DNA of 64,000 nucleotides from an uncultured Victivallales bacterium (GTDB lineage Bacteria; Verrucomicrobiota; Lentisphaeria; Victivallales; UBA1829), in the NCBI GenBank assembly GCA_944390735.1, contig CALXRL010000007.1, positions 124,001-188,000 on the forward strand. The letters run 5' to 3'. The notes under the pieces are model-generated. The model ran no database searches. It saw nothing but the letters and a program-made list of their open reading frames with translations, and was not told the origin of the DNA. Position numbers and translations under genes: made by a program. This document shows positions 54,704 through 55,441 of this stretch, piece by piece (positions within the stretch are counted from its first letter, which is position 1; every line of letters begins with the position of its first letter).

Positions 54704-54735
54704 ACTATGCCATCGGTTTGTTAAATCTCTGTTAG
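54704..54735 (-). promoter_or_regulatory. Pho-box-like repeat and -10 box of the pst operon
   Basis: On the minus strand CTAACAG (54735-54729) and TTAACAA (54724-54718) form a direct repeat with the 11-bp period of PhoB/PhoP sites, followed after 8 nt by CATAGT (54709-54704) as a -10 box. There is no good separate -35, as expected for an activator-dependent Pho promoter. The leader to pstS would be about 50 nt. Confidence 0.6.
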
Positions 54736-54780: not shown

Positions 54781-54880
54781 GAAAAAGGCGCCCCGTACCG
54801 AAGAGGGGGTCGGTACGGGGCTGCAACAAAGGAGAGAGTGTGACAAACGATTTGTTGCATTGGAGAGTCGCTTGTCACAG
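54781..54880 (-). ncRNA. Structured RNA element B (proximal tandem copy)
   Basis: On the minus strand: a hairpin with arms 54879-54868 and 54850-54839 (12 pairs, one G-U), an 18-nt linker CUCUCUCCUUUGUUGCAG (54838-54821), then a terminator hairpin with 10-pair stem GCCCCGTACC/GGTACGGGGC (54821-54812 with 54799-54790), GCC and U5 (54786-54782). The linker and terminator are nearly identical to copy A 174 nt away while the first hairpin differs. No own promoter was found, so it may be read from the copy A promoter by read-through or be a relic. The linker is complementary to an AAAGGAG ribosome-binding site. No RNA family recognised. Confidence 0.65.
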
Positions 54881-54954
54881 TTTTTTTGACACCCCTTTTT
54901 CAGAAAGGTTCCCGCTCCTCCAAAAAAAAATCAGTTTTTTTTCTCCCTTCTCCG

Positions 54955-55058
54955 GAAAAAAAGGTGCCCCGTACCAAGTGGGGTCGGTACGGGGCTGCAA
55001 CAAAGGAGAGAGCATAACAGACAATGTTTGTCGGAACATCGTCCGTTATTGTGTCTGA
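54955..55058 (-). ncRNA. Structured RNA element A (distal tandem copy), promoter-bearing
   Basis: On the minus strand: start near 55058, then a 15-pair hairpin with arms 55049-55035 and 55028-55014 around a 6-nt loop, in which the only two imperfections are G-U pairs. The linker CUCUCUCCUUUGUUGCAG (55012-54995) leads to a terminator hairpin with a perfect 10-pair stem (54995-54986 with 54975-54966), then ACC and U7 (54962-54956). Length about 104 nt. Hairpin mismatches are A-C on the plus strand and G-U on the minus strand, which fixes the transcribed strand. It lies between an upstream gene and the pst promoter and encodes no plausible peptide. Likely a trans-acting small RNA, but function is inferred only. 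Confidence 0.72.
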
Positions 55059-55064
55059 CAACAT

Positions 55065-55092
55065 AATATAATTAATGTTCCGAAAAATACAA
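55065..55092 (-). promoter_or_regulatory. Promoter of RNA element A
   Basis: On the minus strand TTGTAT (55092-55087), 16-nt spacer, TATATT (55070-55065), within an AT-rich stretch. The predicted start at about 55058 is only nine nt before the first hairpin, as expected for a compact small RNA. Confidence 0.65.
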
Positions 55093-55441
55093 TAAAAAAA
55101 TAAAAAATTTTTTTGTTGTGAATGAAATCACATATTATTTTGAGTCTTCTTCTTTTTTCTGCGGATGGACCGGGAGTCCTGGGAGGGGAGATCATTGAAT
55201 TTTTTCTTCCGGAAAGGTTCGTTCCGGAAGAGAGGGGGACGGGGATGGGCGCTTGTCCGGGGGGCTCCGCGAAAAGGACGGGGGGCCGGAGGATCAATGC
55301 CACGCGGGGGCGCCGCAAACGATCCTTCCGATGATGATTCCGTTCCCGGAACCGAATTGCCGCGGGAGAGGGGGGGCTGTTCCTCCCGGGAACGCGAATT
55401 TCCAATGGCGAAAAGGGGGCTGACGCGTCCGGAAAAGGGGC
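55093..55441. other. Non-coding gap: AT-rich part then G-run-rich part
   Basis: 55093-55145 is AT-rich with A and T runs. From about 55160 the plus strand is GC-rich with several G runs (55235-55265 and 55363-55377), and CTTCCGGAA (55206-55214) is repeated inverted at 55222-55230 without a T tract. No reading frame here looks coding, and no clear terminator for the minus-strand gene ending at 55442 was found. Confidence 0.6.

Follow-up and report, generated by a model that had tools for sequence, protein, structure and literature searches.

Two small RNA genes, A (about 55050–54956) and B (about 54879–54783), lie on the minus strand of the window, the 64,000-nt stretch of DNA analyzed here (contig C7, positions 124001–188000, of a 92%-complete, 4.29-Mb draft genome, G000). 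They belong to an sRNA family, apparently undescribed, whose members found here all come from a single bacterial family in the Lentisphaeria/Victivallales group. We consider it likely that A and B are siblings acting in trans, with an extracytoplasmic function (ECF) sigma factor driving their transcription, and that they mask Shine-Dalgarno (SD) sites. Gene anatomy, conservation, covariation, the promoter motif and independence from the neighboring pst operon can be read from the DNA itself; transcription, the sigma factor involved, mRNA pairing and repression are what we infer from them. A preliminary description of the locus had favored sibling sRNAs with an anti-ribosome-binding-site (RBS) linker over a protein or a pst attenuator, and the present analysis supports that reading, with base-pairing to mRNA as its putative part.

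In the proposed mechanism, A and B would be independently transcribed and intrinsically terminated, giving RNAs of about 95 nt each. RNA polymerase with an RpoE-type ECF sigma factor would initiate each RNA at GGAAC-N17-GTC, immediately upstream of the 5′ hairpin (hairpin 1). This hairpin would protect the RNA 5′ end, and the terminator would end the transcript. The invariant linker, CUCUCUCCUUUGUUG, would stay exposed: it is predicted to be single-stranded in the window's genus, and in two other genera most of it would form the loop of a small hairpin of its own. It would pair with the SD regions of target mRNAs (complement CAACAAAGGAGAGAG), blocking ribosome binding. In copy B, a second UCUCC may be available in the hairpin-1 loop.

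Anatomy and conservation of the RNA unit

A 46-nt block is present twice on the minus strand, with the 174-nt spacing given in the preliminary description. Both copies have the same layout: hairpin 1, an unpaired linker (CUCUCUCCUUUGUUGCA) that is identical between A and B, and a 12-bp hairpin with a U tract. In copy A, hairpin 1 (55013–55050, minus strand), which is supported by the fold and by compensatory changes and forms the predicted RNA 5′ end, is followed by the linker (54996–55012), a putative anti-SD seed whose first 15 nt are exact at 16 homologous sites, and by the terminator and U tract (54956–54995). The copy B counterparts, also on the minus strand, are hairpin 1 at 54839–54879, assigned from the fold and carrying a second CUCUCC in its loop, the linker at 54822–54838 and the terminator and U tract at 54783–54821. 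A terminator scan of the minus strand identified the 3′ hairpins of both copies as intrinsic terminators. Intrinsic terminators are a feature of sRNAs of the MicA/RybB type. This hairpin had been described as having 10 pairs and loops of 12 and 10 nt; it has 12 pairs, and the 2-nt difference between the loops is real but their sizes are 6 nt (A) and 8 nt (B).

The minus strand of the two copies folds far better than shuffled sequences (z = -5.3 and -8.4), and the plus-strand fold is weaker (z = -3.6 and -6.3), in agreement with the structured minus-strand RNA originally proposed. The first hairpins had been called unique to each copy, but they are not unrelated because those of A and B can be aligned to a single stem in which changes on one side are compensated on the other. 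UCUCC is present in the hairpin-1 loop of 3/3 aligned B copies. A pseudoknot between this loop and the linker (GCAACAAA/UUUGUUGC in copy B of G000) was rejected, since by eye it is absent from the B copies of G034 and G033.

The covariance-model search of relatives suggested in the preliminary description, together with a pattern search, showed that each of the genus's four genomes has the unit. Both A and B are present in G000, G034 and G033, the last with an additional copy truncated at a contig end, and only an A-type copy was found in G035. Loss of both stems and linker in relatives had been named as evidence against the RNAs; the relatives keep the stem by compensation and the linker exactly. 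In the alignment of seven sequences, a small and related set, the linker and the greater part of the terminator do not change, while hairpin 1 varies, with 5 of its 11 pairs changed on both sides and 98.7% of cells pairing. The hairpin-1 covariation score is higher than in all 500 shuffles and all slid controls; the number of double-change pairs alone is less striking, as 47/500 shuffles reach the hairpin-1 value. A and B are paralogues that share a linker, and this linker is single-stranded in the consensus fold of the window's genus.

The exact 15-mer, CTCTCTCCTTTGTTG, was searched in 198 genomes of the class and was found in 11, all within the window organism's own family, whereas the reversed pattern, used as a control, gave four matches across the 198 genomes. 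The exact 15-nt linker marks sRNA units at 16 homologous sites in 10 genomes, and one further site is not an sRNA. Usually there are one or two units per genome. Outside the window's genus, four g9 genomes and two g8 genomes (g8 and g9 being the two other genera) carry units, with different hairpin and terminator sequences; in their predicted folds the 3′ part of the linker pairs with a preceding ACAAC-type stretch, and the CU-rich anti-SD core is the loop of its own hairpin. A linker match in G004 was rejected as an sRNA because it has no terminator or promoter motif and its other strand is the RBS of a putative lipoprotein gene. That RBS (G004:C286:29659–29673, L094) is a perfect 15-nt complement of the linker, and no sRNA copy was found in G004. 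A covariance-model match in G055 is without the linker and is probably false. An Rfam scan of the RNAs returned no family at gathering score, and MicA and RybB gave no match in a low-threshold scan; matches to F6 and the ClpQY promoter were discarded as sub-threshold and located on the terminators.

Promoter motif and candidate regulators

GGAAC-N17-GTC is present in 7/7 genus copies with intact flanks, 69–74 nt before the linker and a few nucleotides before hairpin 1, and apart from it nothing obvious is common to the regions upstream of A and B. The predicted ECF/sigmaE-type promoter of copy A reads GGAAC-N17-GTCA (55056–55081, minus strand; conserved in four genomes), and that of copy B reads GGAAC-N17-GTCAAA (54885–54912, minus strand; conserved in three). 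Copy A had instead been credited with a sigma-70 promoter; its boxes (TTGTAT/TATATT) are weak and no site passes the scan, and the TATATT (55065–55070, minus strand) overlaps the shared motif.

The motif was first noticed in the window's genus and then tested on other genera, with shuffle P values computed for six loci. It scores 8/8 in G013, G015 and one G018 copy and 7/8 in the other G018 copy, all with unrelated flanks (P from 5e-5 to 2.5e-3 for these four copies), and is degraded, at 6/8, in G016, G017 and G019 (P about 0.045). A predicted promoter of the sigmaE (GGAACTT/GTCAAA) type stands directly before the RNA in the genus and in G013, G015 and G018. The published sigmaE consensus has GGAACTTTT at -35 and GTCAAA at -10 (PMC1804206), and the G033 copy B motif, GGAACTTTCCGGAAAAGCAGGTGTCAAA, matches it closely.

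A stricter motif, GGGAACNTT-N14-GTC, occurs 7, 3, 7 and 3 times in the four genus genomes, which is not above controls. When the occurrences were compared all against all, only two orthologous sets emerged in the genus: sRNA B (three genomes) and the gene for an RpoE-like sigma factor (four genomes). This protein (G000:C39:77208–77828) matches E. coli sigmaE with an E value of 5e-30, its region 4, with a similar helix, being a close resemblance, and its gene is followed by an anti-sigma-like gene. Directly before the ATG of the sigma gene, GGGAACTTTTT...GGAATGTC is found in four genomes (L043, L044, L045 and L082; in G000 at C39:77831–77856) in the same layout as the sRNA promoter. With 2 nt between its end and the ATG, it cannot serve the full frame as a conventional promoter. 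It may be an autoregulatory ECF promoter, a candidate kept in four genomes but too close to the ATG for an ordinary one.

Copy A has a further upstream element. The four A copies share the palindrome TGTGA-N6-TCACA (CGTGA in G033), a candidate operator at 55117–55132 on the minus strand in the window, with its center fixed 54 nt from a conserved TATATTA. Exact sites occur genome-wide at chance (4 observed, where simple arithmetic predicts about 4). The conserved palindrome suggests a second regulatory input to copy A, and the siblings therefore probably respond to different signals while using the same seed. No clear CRP/FNR protein for the palindrome was found in the genome, and CRP was rejected as the activator of A because the best HTH_Crp matches look GntR/LacI- or Lrp-like or lie in unrelated frames, and the number of sites is at chance.

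Genomic context and alternative readings

In three genus genomes pstS follows the units on the same strand, and they could accordingly form a tandem attenuator or leader controlling the pst operon. We regard this as very unlikely. Both units end in strong terminators, and these precede a separate conserved box, CTAACA-N5-TTAACA, at 54716–54735, between the copy B terminator and pstS. The box, which we take to be a Pho box from general knowledge of PhoB/PhoP sites, is conserved in the genus and also in L014, where no such sRNA precedes pstS; the likely pst promoter box falls after the last terminator, downstream of the RNAs as the preliminary description had it. The RNA also occurs away from pst in G035 and in the two other genera: copy A of G035 sits between thiG and an O-antigen-ligase-like gene, and the neighbors of the units in G013, G015 and G018 encode PEPCK, a tRNA methyltransferase with a TIM-barrel protein, a LacI-type protein with a META-domain protein, and a SurA-like PPIase. 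A functional link to phosphate is unsupported; judged from gene order, the sRNA genes are INDEPENDENCE from pst and the pst neighborhood is incidental. An even less credible reading is that the repeated block encodes a small protein or is a mobile DNA repeat. A 101-codon ORF on the plus strand does span both copies, and other genera carry copies at different places, but the compensatory stem changes, the frame-breaking indels and the invariant linker argue against it, as do the folding bias toward the minus strand and the rule of one or two units per genome.

The third reading accepts the RNAs and differs in what they do: the linker would mimic the 3′ end of 16S rRNA (the anti-SD), bind a protein or the ribosome, or titrate SD-like RNA, and would not repress specific mRNAs. 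It contains CUCUCCUUU, which resembles the anti-SD, and the RBSs of the window show no specificity above generic SD pairing. Against this, the linker is conserved past the SD core to UGUUG, which is more than mimicry needs, and in other bacteria siblings that carry motifs of this kind repress mRNAs (PMC12559287). We judge this alternative unlikely, though the strongest of the three, and prefer sibling sRNAs that would mask SD sites.

Two further observations concern these neighborhoods. In G018, the SurA-like PPIase gene (L099, 1616–2665), a typical envelope-stress function, is convergent to the sRNA. In the G033 draft, the sRNA precedes pstS at two different loci (L013 and L016, on contigs C17 and C66), whose products are 86% and 82% identical to the window protein; these represent either two pst loci or a strain mixture.

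Known sRNAs and linker targets

The closest parallels come from three systems. Like A and B, the enterobacterial sigmaE-dependent sRNAs MicA and RybB are short intergenic genes with GGAACTT/GTCAAA promoters (PMC1804206), but the present RNAs have no sequence or Rfam match to them and place an anti-SD linker between two hairpins, and Hfq was not detected in the draft genome. The SisA–D (alphaR8) siblings of Caulobacter likewise have an anti-SD motif in common (PMC12559287); unlike A and B, which have no Rfam match, they are Hfq-associated, alphaproteobacterial and without a conserved promoter motif. LhrC1–5 of Listeria are clustered multicopy sRNAs of about 111–114 nt that are induced by envelope stress and bind RBSs through CU-rich motifs (PMC12101431). 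A and B resemble them as clustered siblings sharing a CU-rich anti-SD motif, whereas LhrC answers to the LisRK two-component system, not to an ECF sigma factor, and has three CU motifs per RNA, and no sequence relation was found.

A literature search combining small RNAs with Lentisphaer- or Victivall- found no relevant description, and small RNAs of the Lentisphaeria/Victivallales seem to be undescribed. With its exact 15-nt seed, covarying stem and sigmaE-type promoter, the family provides a convenient way into the study of post-transcriptional control in this group. It also suggests that ECF sigma factors are paired with sRNAs in this distant phylum too, possibly without Hfq, for which a Pfam profile search of the 92%-complete draft genome found no candidate.

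AAAGGAG, previously said to precede many genes, is found before only 5 of the 33 predicted genes in the window, and the complementarity ascribed to the linker is no better than generic: its mean duplex energy with the predicted RBSs of the window is -11.1 kcal/mol, compared with -10.2 for shuffled linkers (lowest shuffle, -12.3). Specific targets are putative, as these RBSs pair no better with the linker than with shuffled linkers. In the genome as a whole, ACAAAGGAG-N3-10-ATG occurs at fourteen sites versus 2 for the reversed control. Most of the ACAAAGGAG sites head plausible genes, several with signal-peptide-like starts, and a few have very short frames only; these complementary sites reflect SDs in general.

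A broader possibility, which we think improbable, is that sibling sRNAs, independent of Hfq and equipped with a broad anti-SD seed, are the main effectors of an envelope-stress-type ECF regulon in the Lentisphaeria and maybe cover the RBS of the sigma gene too. If so, it would constitute a general translation brake wired as feedback. By reading of the sequences, CAACAAAGGA before the sigma gene of G034 is a possible pairing site for the linker; before the other sigma genes, pairing would involve wobbles or one mismatch.
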